Made by a program: the position numbers and the translations under genes. Positions 5,118 through 51,540 of a stretch of DNA of 64,000 nucleotides are shown in pieces (position 1 is the first letter of the stretch; every line of letters starts with the position of its first letter). The notes under the pieces were generated by a model. It was given only the letters and a program-made list of their open reading frames with translations. It did no database searches and was not told the origin of the DNA. The DNA is from Lacipirellula parvula (GTDB lineage: Bacteria > Planctomycetota > Planctomycetia > Pirellulales > Lacipirellulaceae): contig NZ_AP021861.1 of NCBI RefSeq assembly GCF_009177095.1, positions 2,276,501 to 2,340,500 on the forward strand, written 5' to 3'.

Positions 5118-6775
5118 GGCGCCGTCGTCGTGGGTTCGACGCCCGTTTCGTACACCGTGTAACCGCTCACGTTCGCGCTCGGGTCGACGGGCGTGGCGAA
5201 CACGATTGGCAGATCGAGCGGTGGCGAACTTCGCGCGATCACATGCGTGGCGCCGTACTTTGCGGCTAACTCGCGGACGCGAGGCGTGCCGAGTAGTTCC
5301 GGCGAATCGAGGATGATCTTCCGGCCACGTTCGTCGACGGCGTCGAGGTTCGGGTAGAGCTCGCGCATCCGAGCCCGCCATTCGACGACGCCGGCCGCAT
5401 TTTGCGGTACGTCTTTGTTGCTGCCGACGTCCGCCCGCGACGCATACCACTTGAACGAATGCCCCCACCGGGGGATGAGGAACTTCGCATCGGCCGGGGC
5501 GTGTTCGTCGATCCACTGGCAAGCCGCTTGCCAGCCCGCGGCGTTCTCCACCTGCAGCACGGCAGGCGGCAGGTTCGACTGCCAACGCGCGTAGGTGATG
5601 CTTCCCAGAAACCAAGCGGCAAATAGCAGCGGGGCCGGCGCAACGAAGCTTGAGAACCGCTTGCCGTTGCGCAACATCGCCGCCACCCAGGCCGAGCCGA
5701 GGATCGCAATCGCCAGCGGCAACGCCACGTCGATCTGGCGAAACCAATAGTAGCGCAGCAGCCGAGCAGCGGCCGCGCGGTCGTGATCGAGGGCCAGTTC
5801 AATCGCGAGTCCGACGACCGCGCCGGCGAATGCGAACATCGTGAACCAAATCAATCGGCGTGCGGCGCCTGGTGCGTCGAGGCCGCTAATCGCCTGGAAC
5901 GCTGTATCGCTCGCGCGGCGGCGCCACCAGGCCCACAACGCAACGAAGGCGACGACCATGCCGCCGAGCCAAGTGAGCCGCCACTGCACTTCCGCAGCGG
6001 GAAGCGACAGGGGAGCAAGATGGTGCGGTAGCCGGTCGTAAACATAGATTTGCGCGGCCTGCGCGTTGAGCGCTGGATCAGTACCACGTTCAAGCGCGAG
6101 CGACGGGAGCAGGCCGACGAGCGACAGCAGTCCGCCGAAAATAAGTCCCGGCAGCAACTTTAGCGGCGGCGTCCGCTCCGCGCGCGGTTCCGTGAGCCAT
6201 GTTGCTAGCGCGGTGAGTACGGCCCACGCCCCGACGAGGACATGAAACGCCGCAGCCGCGCCGAACCATGCCCAAGGGCGTCGCCAATCGCCACGAACCA
6301 GCGCTGCCATGCCGAACAGGAACAACCCGTACGCAAAACATTTCGCCTCAACGCCGCCGACGACCCACTCCCCGGCAAAGTTGGCATTGCCGTCGCGGAG
6401 GAGCGCCACCCACAACGCAGCGCCAAGAACCGAGGCCCACGGTACGTCGACGATGCTGGTCGACAAACGCCGCCACCCGGCTGCAAGCAACGTCCATGCC
6501 GCGATGCGGCCAATCCACGCGACCGCCGTCAACGGTAACAGTTTCGTCAGCCACCCGAGCGTCCAGTAGAAGGCGAGGTGCGGATCGGCCGAATCGAGGA
6601 ACAGGTCGCCTGGGCAGTAGCTTGCGTCCCAGTAGTGCTTGGCCTTGGCGAGGTAGTGCGTCTCGTTGACGTGAGGCACGGCGGCGCCGCCGTCGATGAA
6701 GAAGATCAGGAGGATCATCAGGAACTCTAACCAGCCTTGATTCACGTTCGGCGGAACGTTTGTTGAATCGGACAT
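5114..6775 (-). CDS. polytopic membrane protein of unknown function
   Basis: 553 residues from the ATG at 6773-6775; an upstream ATG at 6808 would add 11 residues with no sign of being used. About ten hydrophobic segments alternate with short loops. The first extracytoplasmic loop contains HVNETHYLAKAKHYWD and ADPHLAFYW. The C-terminal soluble part (about residues 420-550) has the look of the lumenal domain of GT-C fold glycosyltransferase-like proteins (CQWIDEHAPADAKFLIP). It resembles uncharacterised planctomycete membrane proteins (possibly the DUF6798 group; I am not certain). Overlaps the Nudix gene by four bases. Confidence 0.75.
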   Translation of the reverse strand: MSDSTNVPPNVNQGWLEFLMILLIFFIDGGAAVPHVNETHYLAKAKHYWDASYCPGDLFLDSADPHLAFYWTLGWLTKLLPLTAVAWIGRIAAWTLLAAGWRRLSTSIVDVPWASVLGAALWVALLRDGNANFAGEWVVGGVEAKCFAYGLFLFGMAALVRGDWRRPWAWFGAAAAFHVLVGAWAVLTALATWLTEPRAERTPPLKLLPGLIFGGLLSLVGLLPSLALERGTDPALNAQAAQIYVYDRLPHHLAPLSLPAAEVQWRLTWLGGMVVAFVALWAWWRRRASDTAFQAISGLDAPGAARRLIWFTMFAFAGAVVGLAIELALDHDRAAAARLLRYYWFRQIDVALPLAIAILGSAWVAAMLRNGKRFSSFVAPAPLLFAAWFLGSITYARWQSNLPPAVLQVENAAGWQAACQWIDEHAPADAKFLIPRWGHSFKWYASRADVGSNKDVPQNAAGVVEWRARMRELYPNLDAVDERGRKIILDSPELLGTPRVRELAAKYGATHVIARSSPPLDLPIVFATPVDPSANVSGYTVYETGVEPTTTAP

Positions 6776-17230: not shown

Positions 17231-18146
17231 GCGGACTCCAGCTAGAAATCACCAGTCTCGATCGTGTCGCTTGATGTCGTGTCGCGTCTCGTCCAGCGCA
17301 AAGTGCGATTTTAGGCGACACTAAGGAATCGCTCTAAGTCGTTTCGCCTCTTGCTATTGCGCTGTTCGTATCGCGTGTCGTGTCGCTTTTAAGGCGACAT
17401 TTAGCGGCGCGGGCAGGATCCTCATTCGGCTCGTTGCGCCCTTCGCAATGGCCCCGGAGGGGCCCGAGTGATGTAGCCAGGGGCGTGAGCCCCTGGTCGC
17501 GGATCATGCAGTTTTGCTGAAGCCCCGGGAGGGGCGACACGATCGTTCGCGCGAATTAGAAGGACTCTGTCGCCCCTCTGGGGCTTGAGATTGTTGATGA
17601 GCGCGCACCAGGGGCTTACGCCCCTGGCTACAGTATGTCGCCCCTGCGGGGCTGGTTGCTCTCGGCGATGGCCCGGATCGTTGGTCAGGGTGAATGTGTT
17701 GACGGCGCGCATCGCTAGCTTCGCTGTGCGGCGCTCTCATTGCGGAGTGAAATTGCCAAAGAGCCTAGCTGTTATTTGATGTATTCATTTGTATACTACA
17801 AAGTCGGGTGGCCGTTTTCAATCGCTTATTGCGGCGAATTAGGGAGATGCATGCGGCGTCCGGCAATTTCTCTGCGACTTTGCGCCTCTGCGAGAGATTT
17901 CAGTCAGGGGGACGTGAATGGGAGTGCCGGGCGCGACCACCGGTCGCGGCTTTTTTTGAGGCCGCGTGGGGCGGTGTTTTCGGCGCGATCCTTCAGCTCT
18001 TCCATGCGGTAGTTTTTGAACTTCACCGCGCTCCTGGCCTTGGCCGTGCGCGGCTTGTACGATTCCACCCAAGGCAGTAGCCTGATGGGTTCTCTCTGTG
18101 CTGGCGCCCCGAGCTGGGCGCGGCCGAAAACGACTAGAAATACCGC
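17231..18146. other. repeat-rich intergenic region
   Basis: About 915 bases without a gene. From 17255 to 17400 a run of related words (gtgtcgct, ggcgaca, gtcgtttcgcc) forms several small inverted repeats. From 17450 to 17672 lies the family H repeat, from 17869 to 17897 a lone family A arm, and from 17932 to 17960 a lone family F arm. Upstream signals for the ketosynthase gene must lie near the right end. Confidence 0.6.
17450..17672. repeat. family H palindromic repeats (gtagccaggggcgtgagcccctgg)
   Basis: Copies of a hairpin word (ccaggggcgtgagcccctgg near 17478; ccaggggcttacgcccctgg near 17609) lie in inverted orientation. They are mixed with gcccc-ggaggggc and cgcccctctggggc hairpins. 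The whole reads as one composite inverted repeat whose arms are themselves hairpins. Confidence 0.7.
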
Positions 18147-19391: not shown

Positions 19392-19433
19392 GCAACGGAA
19401 GCATTTTCAACGCCGCTAGAGAAACATTGGTAT

Positions 19434-19524
19434 GAATGACGAATGACGAAGTCCGAATGACGAATGAAAAACGAAGGCGCCACACTTCCTCCATTCGTCA
19501 TTCTGGTTTCGTCATTCGTCATTC
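19434..19524. repeat. family E palindromic repeat (gaatgacgaatgacgaa)
   Basis: The left arm is made of gaatgacgaa units (19434-19466) and the right arm of its inverse, ttcgtcattcgtcattc (19492-19524), with a short spacer. It sits between the ketosynthase and ACP genes. A second copy is at 19818-19908. Confidence 0.88.
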
Positions 19525-19558
19525 ACCTTCATAGGCTGCTTAGCCAGGAAGTTACGAC

Positions 19559-19819
19559 ATGACCCGCGATGAGATCAAACTAGAGGTCCTCGACATCTTG
19601 TCCGACATCGCTCCCGATGAGGATTTGTCGACTCTGAACGACGACCAGAGCTTCCGCGAGCAGATGGAGCTCGACAGCATGGACTTTCTCGACATCGTCA
19701 TGGAGCTGCGCAAGCGGCACCGGATTCAGATTCCGGAAGACGACTACGTCAACCTAGCGAGCATGACGTCGACGGTGACGTATCTTGAGCCGTTGATGAA
19801 GGATATCCAAAAGGTTTAA
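19559..19819 (+). CDS. acyl carrier protein
   Basis: 86 residues, acidic, four-helix ACP. The phosphopantetheine attachment Ser40 is in LDSMDFLDIVMEL. The start is supported by an aggaag site upstream. It lies between the ketosynthase and the first FAD oxidoreductase, so it probably carries the chain made by this cluster and is not the general AcpP. The stop codon TAA abuts a family E repeat. Confidence 0.93.
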   Translation: MTRDEIKLEVLDILSDIAPDEDLSTLNDDQSFREQMELDSMDFLDIVMELRKRHRIQIPEDDYVNLASMTSTVTYLEPLMKDIQKV

Positions 19820-19908
19820 TGACGAATGACTTAATGACGAATGACGAATGCGGGTTGGCGTGATCAACGGTTCTCATTCGTCATTCGTCATTCGGGAATT
19901 CGTCATTG
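19818..19908. repeat. family E palindromic repeat, second copy
   Basis: An inverted repeat of gaatgacgaa units fills the whole gap between the ACP stop codon and the ATG of the next gene (19909). The right arm ends gaattcgtcattg, directly before the start codon. The usual ribosome-binding position is therefore occupied by repeat sequence. Confidence 0.88.
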
Positions 19909-23053: not shown

Positions 23054-23482
23054 ATGTCCCTCGAACAAATCAAAGCCGCTATTCCGCATCGCGAGCCGTT
23101 CTTGCTTATCGACGAGATCGTCGAGCAGTCGGAGAATCGCATTGTTTGCCGGAAGACGTTCAGCGGCGACGAGTTTTGGTACGCGGGGCATTACCCCGAT
23201 TACCCGATTACGCCGGGCGTGATTTTGTGCGAAGCGTCGATGCAGGCGGGGGCCGTGCTGTTGTCGAAGCTAGTCTCGGGCGCCGACGATCGCGTGCCGG
23301 TGGCGACGCGGGCGAACAACGTGCAGTTCAAAAAGATGGTGCTGCCGGGCGACACGGTGGAGTTGGAAGTCGAGCTGACCGAGCGACTGTCGACGGCGTT
23401 TTTTATGACGGCGAAGGTGACGGTCGGCGGGAAGGTGGCTTGCCGGTTGGAGTTTGCTTGTACGTTGGCTCCGAAGAATTAA
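23054..23482 (+). CDS. FabZ-like 3-hydroxyacyl-ACP dehydratase (hot-dog fold)
   Basis: 142 residues from the ATG at 23054; upstream in-frame codons belong to the repeat. The family pattern IPHREPFLLIDEIVE opens the protein. Catalytic His46 is in YAGHYPDYPITPGV and Glu60 in ILCEASMQAGA. It removes water from a 3-hydroxyacyl-ACP. It lies downstream of the two FAD oxidoreductases and upstream of the FabI-like gene. The stop codon TAA overlaps the first bases of a family B repeat. Confidence 0.9.
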   Translation: MSLEQIKAAIPHREPFLLIDEIVEQSENRIVCRKTFSGDEFWYAGHYPDYPITPGVILCEASMQAGAVLLSKLVSGADDRVPVATRANNVQFKKMVLPGDTVELEVELTERLSTAFFMTAKVTVGGKVACRLEFACTLAPKN

Positions 23483-23647
23483 CCGCCAAGGACGCCAAGA
23501 TCGCCAAGGAAATACAAAGCAGAGGAATTGAACCACGACGACACGACGGCCACGACGAGAAGTCAAATGATTATCCTTCGTAGTGCTCGTCGTGTCGTCG
23601 TGGTAAGTCCTCTTCCCCTTGGCGTCCTTGGCGTCCTTGGCGGTTAA
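23479..23647. repeat. family B repeat with a family C repeat nested inside
   Basis: Outer arms: ttaaccgccaaggacgccaa (from 23479) and ttggcgtccttggcggttaa (to 23647). Inside lies a second, unrelated inverted repeat (23531-23605) with arms aaccacgacgacacgacgg and ccgtcgtgtcgtcgtggt-like. Both outer ends are TTAA. The outer left end supplies the FabZ-like stop codon. Confidence 0.9.
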
Positions 23648-39475: not shown

Positions 39476-39501
39476 TGTCGTTTGGTAATCGTTGCTTAAT
39501 C

Positions 39502-39957
39502 GACAGGATGACTGGATTGGCTGGATTAACAGGATGTCGCAGGAAGGTCACGAACTTTGCGGCGAACCTCGACGGACTCGGCGCCAAAGTTCATCAGCAG
39601 GCCGACAGGCAAGCCAGTCGCTACCAAGTAATTCACTAACTGAACTTCATGTGCTTTGGCAAGACGTTCGCACGCCTTCAACTCGACGACTATTTTGTCT
39701 TCAACAATGATATCGGCGAAGAACTGCCCGACGACTTCGTCACGATAGAAAACGTCCAGAGGGGCTTGTTGCTGTGCACGAAGTCCTGCATGTCTCAGCT
39801 CAATCAGCAAACTTCGTTCGTAAACCGACTCCAGAAATCCCGTCCCAAGCGTATTGTGGACTTCGTATGCACATCGAATGATTCGCTCAGTTAGTTCCGA
39901 ATGAACCATTCGTCGGCCTTTTCATCCCGTTAATCCAGCCTATCCTGTAATCCGGTC
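39502..39957. mobile_element. GxxExxY gene flanked by 35-bp inverted repeats (family D)
   Basis: Left arm 39502-39536 and right arm 39923-39957 match as inverted repeats at 30 of 35 positions (core ctggattaac-ggatg). Between them lies only the GxxExxY gene. A gene-free copy of the family, with just the two arms and a short centre, is at 46484-46597. The arrangement resembles a small transposable unit, but no transposase is encoded and target-site duplications were not established. Confidence 0.6.
39526..39909 (-). CDS. GxxExxY family protein
   Basis: 127 residues. The family signature GTGFLESVYERSLLIEL is present, followed by VVGQFFADIIVEDKIVVELKA, whose D...ExK arrangement is nuclease-like (PD-(D/E)XK-type core; inferred). 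Function of the family is not established. The last three residues (TSC) and stop codon are encoded inside the left arm of the flanking inverted repeat, so gene and repeat are physically one unit. Confidence 0.88.
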   Translation of the reverse strand: MVHSELTERIIRCAYEVHNTLGTGFLESVYERSLLIELRHAGLRAQQQAPLDVFYRDEVVGQFFADIIVEDKIVVELKACERLAKAHEVQLVNYLVATGLPVGLLMNFGAESVEVRRKVRDLPATSC

Positions 39958-41323
39958 AATTAGGTTTTGCGGTCAGAGCAAGGCATTCATCAAGACAATC
40001 GACCAGAAAGTCGGCGTCGTCTTTGTTGAGGCACATCGGCGGTTTGATGCGGAGCGTATTGCCGAAGAGGCCGCCTTTGCCGATGATCAGGCCGCGTTCT
40101 TTGGTCCGTTCCATGACGTCGGCCGCTTCGGTGTTGGCGGGCTCTTTTGTCTTGCGATCGCGAACGAGTTCGACGCCGAGCATCAGGCCCTTGCCGCGGA
40201 CGTCGCCGATCAGCGGGTGACGTTCTTGCAGTTCCAGCAGGCGATTCTTCAAGTGCTCGCCGATGTTCTTGGCATTTTGCTGAATCTGATCGCGATCGAT
40301 CACTTCGAGCGTGGCGAGGCCTTGCGTCATCGAGATCGGGTTGCCGCCGTACGTATTGAAGTGGATGCGGTTCTTCATCATCGCGGCGATTTCAGGCCGC
40401 GTGGTGCAGGCGCCGAGCGGGGCGCCGTTGCCGATGCCCTTGGCCATCGTCACCATGTCGGGCGTGACGCCGTAGTTTTCGAAGCCCCAGAAGTGGTCGC
40501 CGGTGCGGCCGAAGCCGCTTTGCACCTCGTCGGCAATGCAGAGGCCGCCCGCTTTGCGGACGATGTCGTAGACGATCTCGAAGTAGCCGGGGGGCGGCGT
40601 CACGGCGCCGCCGACGCCTTGGATCGACTCGGCGATGAACGCGGCGACTTGGCCGCTTGTTTCGTACTTGATGACGTTCTCGACGTCCTTCGCGCACTTC
40701 AGCCCGCAACTCGGATATTCGAGCCCGTAGGGGCAGCGATAGCAGTAGGGGGCGAGCGCGTTCTTGACGTTGATCGTCGGGTTCTGCTTGAACTTCCAGG
40801 TGCTGTGGGCCGTGAGGGCCATCGTCGCCTGCGTGCCGCCGTGGTAGCAGTTGCGGAGGCTGATCACCTCTTGGTTGCCGGTGAACTCGCGGGCCGAGAG
40901 AATGGCGATCTCGTTCGCCTCACTGCCGGAGTTGGTGAAGTAGGTTTGCGTCAGGCCGCTGCCGTCGGGGAAATGCTCGGCGAGTTTCTGGCCGAACTCG
41001 CCGATCGTCGGGTGGAGGTAGATCGTCGTGACATGCTGCAGCTTGCCGACTTGCTCTTGCACCTTCTTGACGATGTCGGGATGGCAGTGGCCGACCGAGA
41101 CGGTGACGATCCCCGCGAAGGCGTCGAGGTACCGCTTGCCTGTCTCGTCCCACAGGTACTGCATGTGGCCTTCAACCAACAGCAGCGGATCGCGGTAGTA
41201 AGTGATGAGCCCCGGCGTGAGGTACTGCTGCCGGAGGGCGAGGACTTCGGACTTCGAGGGCCCGTCGTAGGGGGCGGGCGTGTGGTCGATGATCGGCAAC
41301 GAAGCGCGAGATTCGGTGGGCAC
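39956..41323 (-). CDS. class III aminotransferase (AGXT2/beta-alanine type)
   Basis: 455 residues, PLP fold type I. LDAFAGIVTVSVGHCHP near the start, TYFTNSGSEANEIAILSAR for the phosphate site, ADEVQSGFGRTG with the PLP Asp, and the Schiff-base Lys295 in MAKGIGNGAPLG. Best fit is alanine-glyoxylate aminotransferase 2/beta-alanine-pyruvate transaminase. Beside PreA, beta-ureidopropionase and MmsA it most likely turns beta-alanine (and 3-aminoisobutyrate) into the semialdehyde. A four-Cys insert (CYRCPYG...PSCGLKC) is visible and is seen in relatives. Confidence 0.9.
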   Translation of the reverse strand: MPTESRASLPIIDHTPAPYDGPSKSEVLALRQQYLTPGLITYYRDPLLLVEGHMQYLWDETGKRYLDAFAGIVTVSVGHCHPDIVKKVQEQVGKLQHVTTIYLHPTIGEFGQKLAEHFPDGSGLTQTYFTNSGSEANEIAILSAREFTGNQEVISLRNCYHGGTQATMALTAHSTWKFKQNPTINVKNALAPYCYRCPYGLEYPSCGLKCAKDVENVIKYETSGQVAAFIAESIQGVGGAVTPPPGYFEIVYDIVRKAGGLCIADEVQSGFGRTGDHFWGFENYGVTPDMVTMAKGIGNGAPLGACTTRPEIAAMMKNRIHFNTYGGNPISMTQGLATLEVIDRDQIQQNAKNIGEHLKNRLLELQERHPLIGDVRGKGLMLGVELVRDRKTKEPANTEAADVMERTKERGLIIGKGGLFGNTLRIKPPMCLNKDDADFLVDCLDECLALTAKPN

Positions 41324-49054: not shown

Positions 49055-49143
49055 TTAGCCCCGGGCTCCGCCCGGGGATGGCACAACGCGGGGCGATGTC
49101 GATCCATGTGGTGAGCGACCCCCTGGCGGAGCCAGGGGCTAGG
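49055..49143. repeat. family G palindromic repeat, third copy
   Basis: The left arm tagccccgggctccgcccgg and right arm tggcggagccaggggctagg are inverted around about 45 bases. It fills the gap between the uricase stop (49150) and the allB start. It is the most diverged of the three copies. Confidence 0.88.
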
Positions 49144-50055: not shown

Positions 50056-50082
50056 TTTATTTCTTAATTTCTGGGGGGATTT

Positions 50083-50275
50083 CACGCAAAGGCGCGAAGG
50101 GAAATACAGAAATGCTTTTTTTACCACGAAACACACGAAAAGTACGAAAGGAAGAGGAGGGCAGGATATGAAAATTGGAAGTTCGAGGTCCAATTAATCA
50201 GCCGTCTTTCTTTCGTCGTTTTCGTGTGTTTCGTGGTTAATGAATTTGTATTTCCTTTGCGCCTTTGCGTGAGAT
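50083..50275. repeat. family A repeat interrupted by a family C-like palindrome
   Basis: Outer family A arms are at 50083-50105 (cacgcaaaggcgcgaaggga...) and 50249-50275 (tatttcctttgcgcctttgc...). The inner inverted repeat runs from about 50123 (accacgaaacacacgaaaag) to 50238 (ttttcgtgtgtttcgtggtt). The outer right arm ends about five bases from the allC stop codon. Confidence 0.9.
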
Positions 50276-50280
50276 GTATT

Positions 50281-51540
50281 TTATTGAGCTAGTTGATAAA
50301 GCGTCCGAGCCAGAACCTCGATACCTGCGCGGATGGCTGCGGGGGACGAATATTCTTCCGGGCGGTGGCTCATCCCGTCTCGGCAGGGGATGAAAATCAT
50401 CGCGATCGGGCAGACAAGCGACATGAACAGCGAGTCGTGGTACGCGCGGCTGACCATTCGTTGGTGCGTGAGCTTGGCGTCGACGCACGACTGTTCAATC
50501 GCGGCGACGATGGCCGGATCGCTCGTCGCCGGCGGGTCGGCGTTGATCATTTCGATCGTCGTCGGCACGCCGAGTTCGTCGCCGAACTGTTTCGCTTTTT
50601 GTTTGATACGCTCAAGCACACGGTCGCGGCGCGGGCCGTCGATGTCACGGACGTCGATTTCGAGCAGCACGTCGCGGGGGATGCTGTTGACCGCGCGGGG
50701 GTGAACGTCGAGAACGCCGACAGTGCCGACCGTGTCGGGGCTGCCTGACTCGCGGGCGGCGGCATCGACTTCGAGCGCGAGTCGCGAGGCGGCGAGGAGC
50801 GGATCGCGGCGGTCGGCCATCATCACGCCGCCGGCATGGCCGCCGGGGCCGGTGTAACGGACGCGCAGTGCGGCGGGGGCGGCGATCGCGGTGACGGCGC
50901 CGATGTCGAGATTCGCACGTTCGAGCAGCGGGCCTTGCTCGATGTGGAGTTCGGCGAAGGCTGAATAGTGGCCGGGCTGGAGCTTTACGTCTGCGAGCGG
51001 GCCGGTGAAGCCGGCGCTCTGGCGGACGTTGTCGAGGTTTTGGCCGTCGGCGTCGGTGAGCTTCGCGGCGGCGTCGGGGGGGAGTTGGCCGCTGAGTAGG
51101 CGACTGCCGAGGCAGCCATAAGCGAAGCGGGTCGGTTCCTCGGAGGTGAACATCACCAACTCGATGGAGCGGCGGGGGACCGCGGGGGTGAACCCCGCGG
51201 CTCGCATGGCACGCTGAAGCGTGCGGATGGCTTCTAGGCCGCCGAGGACGCCGACGGTGCCGTCGTACTTGCCGGAGTAGGGGATCGCGTCCGTGTGCGA
51301 GCCGGTGGCGACCGGCGGCAGCGTGGGGTCGGTTCCTTCCCAACGAGCAAAGATGTTGCCGACGGTGTCGTGCCGCACTTTCAGGCCAGCTTCTTCGAAT
51401 AGGCCGACGAGGTAGGCGCGGGCCGCGAGATCGGTTTCAGTGAAGACGATCCGCTGGACGGCGGGGGCGGGAACGTCGGAAAATTGGGCGAGGCGGTCGA
51501 GCTCCGCGGAGCAGCGTGCGATGTCAACTTTCAGGTCCAC
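50281..51540 (-). CDS. allC: allantoate amidohydrolase (M20 family, Zn-dependent)
   Basis: 419 residues from the GTG at 51538-51540, chosen because the protein is then family-length and no in-frame ATG is close; the frame further upstream is antisense to the GNAT gene. Metal ligands: GSHTDAIPYSGKYDG (His, Asp), TSEEPTRF (Glu-Glu), AELHIEQGP and a late SRAYHDSLFMS (His). Dimerisation-domain block GPGGHAGGVMM. Members hydrolyse allantoate, ureidoglycolate or N-carbamoyl-amino acids. Next to uricase and allB, allantoate is most likely. A second beta-ureidopropionase is the alternative. Confidence 0.88.
   Translation of the reverse strand: MDLKVDIARCSAELDRLAQFSDVPAPAVQRIVFTETDLAARAYLVGLFEEAGLKVRHDTVGNIFARWEGTDPTLPPVATGSHTDAIPYSGKYDGTVGVLGGLEAIRTLQRAMRAAGFTPAVPRRSIELVMFTSEEPTRFAYGCLGSRLLSGQLPPDAAAKLTDADGQNLDNVRQSAGFTGPLADVKLQPGHYSAFAELHIEQGPLLERANLDIGAVTAIAAPAALRVRYTGPGGHAGGVMMADRRDPLLAASRLALEVDAAARESGSPDTVGTVGVLDVHPRAVNSIPRDVLLEIDVRDIDGPRRDRVLERIKQKAKQFGDELGVPTTIEMINADPPATSDPAIVAAIEQSCVDAKLTHQRMVSRAYHDSLFMSLVCPIAMIFIPCRDGMSHRPEEYSSPAAIRAGIEVLARTLYQLAQ

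Follow-up and report, generated by a model that had tools for sequence, protein, structure and literature searches.

The spacer between allC and uricase in Lacipirellula parvula holds one palindromic repeat inside the loop of another, unrelated one, and the inner unit (family B) is younger than the outer one (family A). Probably, both units are non-autonomous copies from a class of palindromic elements that bear nuclease genes and insert preferentially in hairpin tips. Our observations thus suggest a mobile element of a little-described type, one that takes up residence in the tips of hairpins.

Results

The window analysed here is the whole stretch of 64,000 nucleotides, which sits within a 6.92-Mb contig. 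Family labels are our own: A (CACGCAAAGGCGC), B (CCACGAAACACACGAAA), C (CCGCCAAGGACGCCAAG), D (CCACGACGGCACGACG), E (CCGCTGATGAACGC), F (CCGCGAATCACGCGAAT), G (GAATGACGAATG / GAATGCTGAATG) and H (GGATTGGCTGGATTAACAGGAT). A' denotes A with everted arms, X>Y denotes X outside Y, and seven-digit numbers are positions in the contig (G000:C1).

An inverted-repeat search placed the A arms at 50079-50103 (plus strand) and 50251-50275 (minus strand); they are 25 nt each and 88% complementary, with 147 nt between them. The B arms, found in the same way at 50120-50155 (plus) and 50205-50240 (minus), are 36 nt each and 89% complementary, with 49 nt between them. Two remnants of the A loop were read from the sequence and compared with other junctions: aatacagaaatgcttt, from outer to inner arm on the left (50104-50119), and the stretch from inner to outer arm on the right (50241-50250). 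The B loop holds a 7-bp hairpin, AATTGGA/TCCAATT, at 50173-50195, according to the predicted fold and the sequence. Both allC and uricase are on the minus strand, only 5 nt separate the end of the right A arm from the allC stop codon (50281-50283), and the nest takes up most of the spacer from this codon to the start of uricase. The predicted fold of 50060-50300 has an energy of -107.6 kcal/mol compared with -56.6 (sd 4.1) in 200 dinucleotide shuffles (z -12.3), none of which reached the native stability. An earlier note on this DNA had described, at 50083-50275, a palindrome within an unrelated palindrome whose outer arms still match; the arm search and the fold bear this out, and its coordinates were correct to within a few bases (50079-50275). 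An Rfam scan of the window gave no rRNA match, and the nest lies between allC and uricase, not in an rRNA gene.

The outer (A) motif has 11 matches in the window at up to 3 mismatches, against 0.10 expected. The inner motif, CGAAACACACGAAA, occurs in the window only twice, in its own two B arms, and with 2 mismatches allowed this count is no more than chance would give (0.65 expected, and 2 or more in 14 of 100 shuffles). Over the whole genome, its exact form is found 54 times, compared with 0 for the reversed control. Fuzzy arm patterns were rejected as a means of counting families; the reversed control was nearly as frequent in at least one sample for A, B and D.

The order of arrival can be read from the same gap in relatives. 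Six same-genus genomes, counting the source genome, were searched with uricase, and four of the six matched. In G003, whose uricase is 92% identical, the orthologous gap holds an A-type palindrome, CTCGCAAAGACGC, that lacks B and has a different centre, and in G001 (90% identical) it holds a short A relic, TCTCACG-CCTT-CGCGTGAGA, also with no B. G005 (75% identical) carries an A-type palindrome, CTCGCAGAGGCGCAGAGACGC, upstream of uricase, again with no B; the contig ends there, and allC was not seen. Compared with these three, B stands beside uricase in the source genome only. As an A-type palindrome or relic without B is present in three same-genus genomes, B must have joined an older A-type site later, which upholds the earlier claim that the inner unit was probably the later arrival. 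That claim would have been refuted if the A copy of every relative had the same centre, and this is not the case, G003 having another centre and G001 only a relic, both without B. The 54 exact B motifs of the source genome compare with 17 in G003, 9 in G001, none in the other three same-genus genomes, and 4 outside the genus, spread over three genomes that belong to one other genus. Of the 43 genomes of the bacterial family, 6 contain the exact B motif and 25 the exact A motif, of which the source genome has 178 copies. The uricase-allB gap contains a GC-rich palindrome (49056-49141) that, in contrast to the allC-uricase nest, is conserved in both G001 and G003.

Target duplication at B could not be resolved, as the spacers are too diverged between genomes, and two pattern searches for an empty site yielded 0 and 1 candidate, respectively. 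The one candidate (L252) is a solo C hairpin with a loop that resembles the flanks of C>B nests, and it is either empty or excised. Neither a target duplication nor a same-strain empty site was seen.

Nesting is not confined to this gap. There are 33 B elements in the source genome, two of which (1239240 and 4887880) were anchored on an F arm. Eight are bracketed by A or C arms (three by A, five by C), one further element has a C arm on one side only, and 24 have no A or C bracket; A>B nests are found, besides that in the allC-uricase gap, at 578146 and 5691535. At least 12 of the 33 enclose another palindrome in their own loop: both E arms in seven, both A' arms in five, and GC-rich or other palindromes in two. 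Two of the B elements belong to triple nests, C>B>A', and B>A' also occurs at 2462271. The A' inner units of five B elements (5705731, 5706814, 5708747, 6129267 and 6136134) have the right arm before the left arm and a short loop; this form is also found alone, and it might mark the join between two A elements or reflect a different insertion polarity. Another triple nest, at about 6014-6330 of locus L110, has a REP-like palindrome starting with GTAG outside C, which in turn is outside B.

Linkers between B and an inner E are mostly unrelated among copies (1 of 21 pairs above z 3), pointing to separate events, and those of B>A' are alike in 5 of 10 pairs, two of the copies being near-identical. 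The earlier note had also taken nesting as evidence that the units move independently. This holds in so far as many ordered pairs nest, A>B and B>A' alike, but some nests have been inherited or duplicated whole. Movement of the units is inferred by comparison and was not observed; the comparisons fit separate movement.

Where the inner unit sits was evaluated with 17 nests entered by hand, 12 from the 19 rows of the nest list and five from the list of B elements. An off-centre nest (L104), two rows from G001 and four from the source genome (175953, 328004, 337121 and 390036, judged to be same-family, GC-rich or chance) were left out. With the inner unit counted as lying in the outer loop, P is 3.6e-5 under uniform insertion over detectable positions. 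Both gaps from outer to inner arm are 32 nt or less in 13 of the 17, leaving little space for a cut arm, and the two gaps differ by 12 nt or less in 14. The L104 nest, with gaps of 23 and 157 nt, lies far off-centre. Left-over pieces of cut arms were sought around B only, not for nests without B. Together with L104, this means that support for the loop rule is good where B is concerned, whereas other pairs have put it less to the test. With the 80-nt flanks on either side of B compared, inverted repeats were found in 7 of 33 elements at a score of 14 (32 of 638 mispaired flanks) and in 10 of 33 at a score of 12 (58 of 638). The mispaired controls are inflated by arm families common to different loci, and the outer repeats at B exceed them only in part. 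The borders of B, taken from the flanks of all 33, are usually GAAATGC / GAATRCGGGG, often with one form per side. A GGAAATAC-like sequence lies at the inner edge of the A, C and D arms and at the outer edge of B, and could be part of B or of the target.

Nuclease genes are present between arms of the same families. A profile search of the source genome found four PF13366 genes, all TIGR04256 GxxExxY, and all four lie between inverted arms, of families H, D, A and B (A-type arms around L033, B-type arms around L034). The one in the window (39526-39909, minus strand) encodes a GxxExxY / PDDEXK_3 nuclease of 127 aa, scoring 147.9 bits with TIGR04256 (cut-off 35) and 145.3 with PF13366 (cut-off 22). 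An H arm, GGATTGGCTGGATTAACAGGAT, at 39497-39536 (plus strand) overlaps the 3' end of this gene, and the arm search found the matching inverted arm on its other side at 39923-39962 (minus strand). Same-genus nuclease genes have arms that are C-like (L261), D-like (L258), E-like (L260), F-like (L262 and L266) and H-like (L263, in G003, about 9 kb from uricase). GxxExxY genes are present in 39 of the 43 family genomes, in up to 14 copies, and have relatives in many phyla.

Arm pairs with a score of 14 or more flank 82 of 111 loci of nuclease homologues, drawn from many phyla, compared with 84 of 1102 mispaired flanks; the other 29 have none at this threshold. Two of 113 loci (L127 and L142) were omitted for short flanks, and L166 and L171 were omitted from the tree for stops. 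The search for relatives in many phyla kept the best 80 of 512, and the sets of 29 and 30 loci from the family consist of the highest-scoring ones retrieved and are no random sample. When 58 loci with full flanks were used, arms were found in 39, compared with 1 of 232 displaced frames, and further nuclease loci of the family, for which there was no control, had arms at 19 of 20. The arms are internally repetitive, with lags of 8 and 9 (matching fractions of 0.418 and 0.356 against about 0.28 when shuffled; 70 arms).

Arm type also tracks nuclease relatedness. Over the 82 loci, arm similarity and nuclease distance gave a Spearman coefficient of -0.394 (-0.388 between phyla), and none of 999 permutations was as strong. 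The test limited to nearest neighbours from another phylum is weak (0.402 compared with 0.322, sd 0.031; permutation maximum 0.420). The nearest relatives of the A and B nucleases have like arms, but this is not so for the D and H nucleases. The pair L033/L206 was considered as proof of interspecies transfer and rejected, the two genes being orthologous and in the same gltB-gltD gap. A literature search, for which most subscription journals were outside coverage, found no paper on arms around GxxExxY genes; two papers mention GxxExxY, once each, and another mentions PF13366 once.

As for the protein, the residues E27, D66, E76, K78 and Q90 do not vary among 28 sequences, and Y94 hardly does; this is the RecB/Cas4 pattern. 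The predicted model (pLDDT 92.4) has a PD-(D/E)XK-like core. Its best VIA-align row was Cas4 SSO0001 (Z 10.0, rmsd 4.1, 100 aligned), and LHK-Exo, SSO0001, AdnAB and lambda exonuclease were among the first Foldseek rows, of which none reached E 0.001. A fold that a model appears to have in common with these enzymes is no evidence of function. The nuclease profile had no match up to E 1 among the sequences of solved structures, and PADLOC, run on three nucleases, gave one weak Cas4 match (E 0.0003). The dN/dS was about 0.1 for an A-type nuclease pair (0.010/0.093) and 0.08 for a D-type pair (0.14/1.8); four other pairs were saturated, so these values come from two pairs only.

Collinear 400-kb blocks of the source genome and G001, with aligned stretches roughly 70-90% identical, were compared for nests at the same site. 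The window has a second nest, C>D, at 23479-23647, with C arms at 23479-23509 and 23617-23647 and D arms at 23532-23558 and 23578-23604. At this site (2299979) both species have the outer C, with D inside it in the source genome and E in G001; at 2488567, C is again outside in both, with B inside in the source genome and E in G001. The D>E nests at 2185771 and 2501291 are common to the two species, so nests can be old. Two G-type palindromes, GACGAATGACGAATG, lie close together in the window (19433-19525 and 19818-19907), and a unit resembling them follows a stop codon in G001 and is absent from the source genome. A seemingly clean difference in the G family between species shows a one-arm motif in the species that lacks the unit, and insertion therefore cannot be distinguished from deletion.

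Discussion

These results are consistent with a mechanism in which a full element would have a small ORF, for a RecB/Cas4-like GxxExxY nuclease, enclosed by inverted arms that each comprise about three units of 8-9 nt, and copies without the ORF would be short palindromes such as A and B. Between allC and uricase, B would have entered the loop of an older A element and left the A arms standing. We propose that: the nuclease may act on its cognate arms and open the tips of hairpins or cruciforms; repair or capture at an opened tip may bring in another element, so that palindromes grow within palindromes; and deletion across a hairpin may take elements out again. That the nuclease acts on cognate arms and cuts tips is inferred from co-variation only, without biochemistry, and nothing in the data shows the nuclease moving DNA.

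The strongest rival explanation, which we regard as unlikely without discounting it, is that the arms are dispersed repeats between which recombination or gene conversion swaps centres, with no insertion at tips. An outer C that two species share at two loci, with a centre that differs between them, is what such an exchange would give, and the GGAAATAC-like sequence at the arm edges of A, C, D and B would suit it as well. So would the C>E nests that recur in G001, whose linkers are similar to each other. However, the 24 B elements without an A or C bracket mean that B reaches places lacking those arms, the B>E linkers are mostly unrelated, and an exchange of centres leaves unexplained why arms track nuclease type across phyla.

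It is improbable that the palindromes are instead selected hairpins of transcripts (terminators, processing or stability signals), with nesting a chance insertion that survived with both hairpins intact. The fold is indeed very stable, the nest would be in the transcript of the two co-oriented genes between which it lies, and selection might remove insertions that cut an arm; however, both centres and families vary at the same spacer among relatives, and the same arms enclose nuclease genes in different phyla.

A role for Y1 tyrosine transposases (RAYT or TIRYT), which would mobilise A and B as REP- or TIR-type repeats, is weakened to the point of being very hard to maintain. RAYT-like genes can have long flanking inverted repeats unrelated to REPs, according to PMC3733652, and the genome has four Y1_Tnp matches. 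However, three of these four loci are flanked by GC-rich REP-like palindromes and one has no flanking repeat above a score of 9, and the exact A, B, C and D core motifs are absent from all four 3-kb loci. Like A and B, the REP/REPIN-RAYT and TIRtron/TIRYT systems combine small palindromes in spacers with a cognate gene that has these repeats on both sides, but their cognate gene is a Y1 tyrosine transposase whereas that of A and B is a PD-(D/E)XK nuclease. Moreover, the GTAG or CGTC tag, the criterion for REPs in PMC3733652, is absent from the A arms, which start with TCTCACGC or TTTCACGC, and the B arms, which start with TTTAACCACG. A single long composite element with two layers of arms is refuted, in spite of the two other A>B nests, by A without B in relatives, B within C, B without A or C, and B outside A'.

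Other repeats of this genome have partners of their own. The GC-rich palindrome pair TGTAGCCAGGGGCG of the window (17472-17632 and 17608-17653), in which Rfam recognises one arm as an Acido-Lenti-1 RNA (55.4 bits), also flanks a Y1 transposase gene (L253), so that Acido-Lenti-1 looks like the REP of a RAYT-type gene here. A four-helix-bundle gene of TIGR02436 (PF05635, 23S rRNA-intervening sequence protein), a profile with eight matches in the source genome, lies between G-type arms at 2244794-2245226 (L059), and the same arms are found in G001. Within the bacterial family, 20 of 27 TIGR02436 loci lie between inverted arms, compared with 35 of 511 mispaired flanks; three of 30 loci were left out. 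In the source genome, unit-repeat arms thus go with GxxExxY genes, a G-type pair with a helix-bundle protein (one case, 2244794), and GC-rich REPs with RAYT-like genes.

Known systems resemble the nuclease-bearing palindromes in part. As described in PMC4990558, the intervening sequence (IVS) of 23S rRNA is a stem-loop that ends in inverted repeats, contains a small ORF and replaces the tetraloop of an rRNA hairpin. B likewise lies at a hairpin tip, in the A loop, a likeness of geometry only, and TIGR02436 genes, as noted above, are often between arms. However, IVSs reside in rRNA genes whereas A and B are in spacers, and the cognate ORF of A and B encodes a nuclease of another fold than the S23 / four-helix-bundle protein. 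MITEs also have terminal inverted repeats, no coding capacity and many copies, as do the B elements and the exact A and B motifs. For the hupL MITE, an origin from a PD-(D/E)XK_2 (YhgA) element and 10-bp direct repeats at the ends have been proposed and described, respectively, in PMC4853749. It too is a short inverted-repeat element thought to depend on a nuclease-type partner, but that partner is PD-(D/E)XK_2 whereas that of A and B is PDDEXK_3, and no target duplication was resolved at B. There are also precedents for palindromes as targets: some REP dimers lie within longer palindromes, as stated in PMC3733652, and IS1397, ISKpn1 and IS621 aim their insertion at REP palindromes, according to PMC1525189. 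The latter are complete IS with their own transposases, whereas in the present case the units that enter each other are short palindromes, of many families.

A and B are best described as MITE/REP-like elements that are associated with a nuclease and nest at hairpin tips, neither movement nor nuclease action having been shown. A broader and more tentative idea, which we would not yet favour over its negation, is that mobile palindromes with either a GxxExxY nuclease or a four-helix-bundle IVS protein form one class that inserts at the tips of its own or other hairpins, rRNA IVSs being members that landed in rRNA hairpins. The function and origin of these IVSs have been termed unclear in PMC4990558. 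Our findings give the abundant but so far unassigned GxxExxY nuclease family a candidate role, tied to the arm sequences, and suggest that a single insertion rule, the hairpin tip, may apply to spacer palindromes and rRNA IVSs alike.
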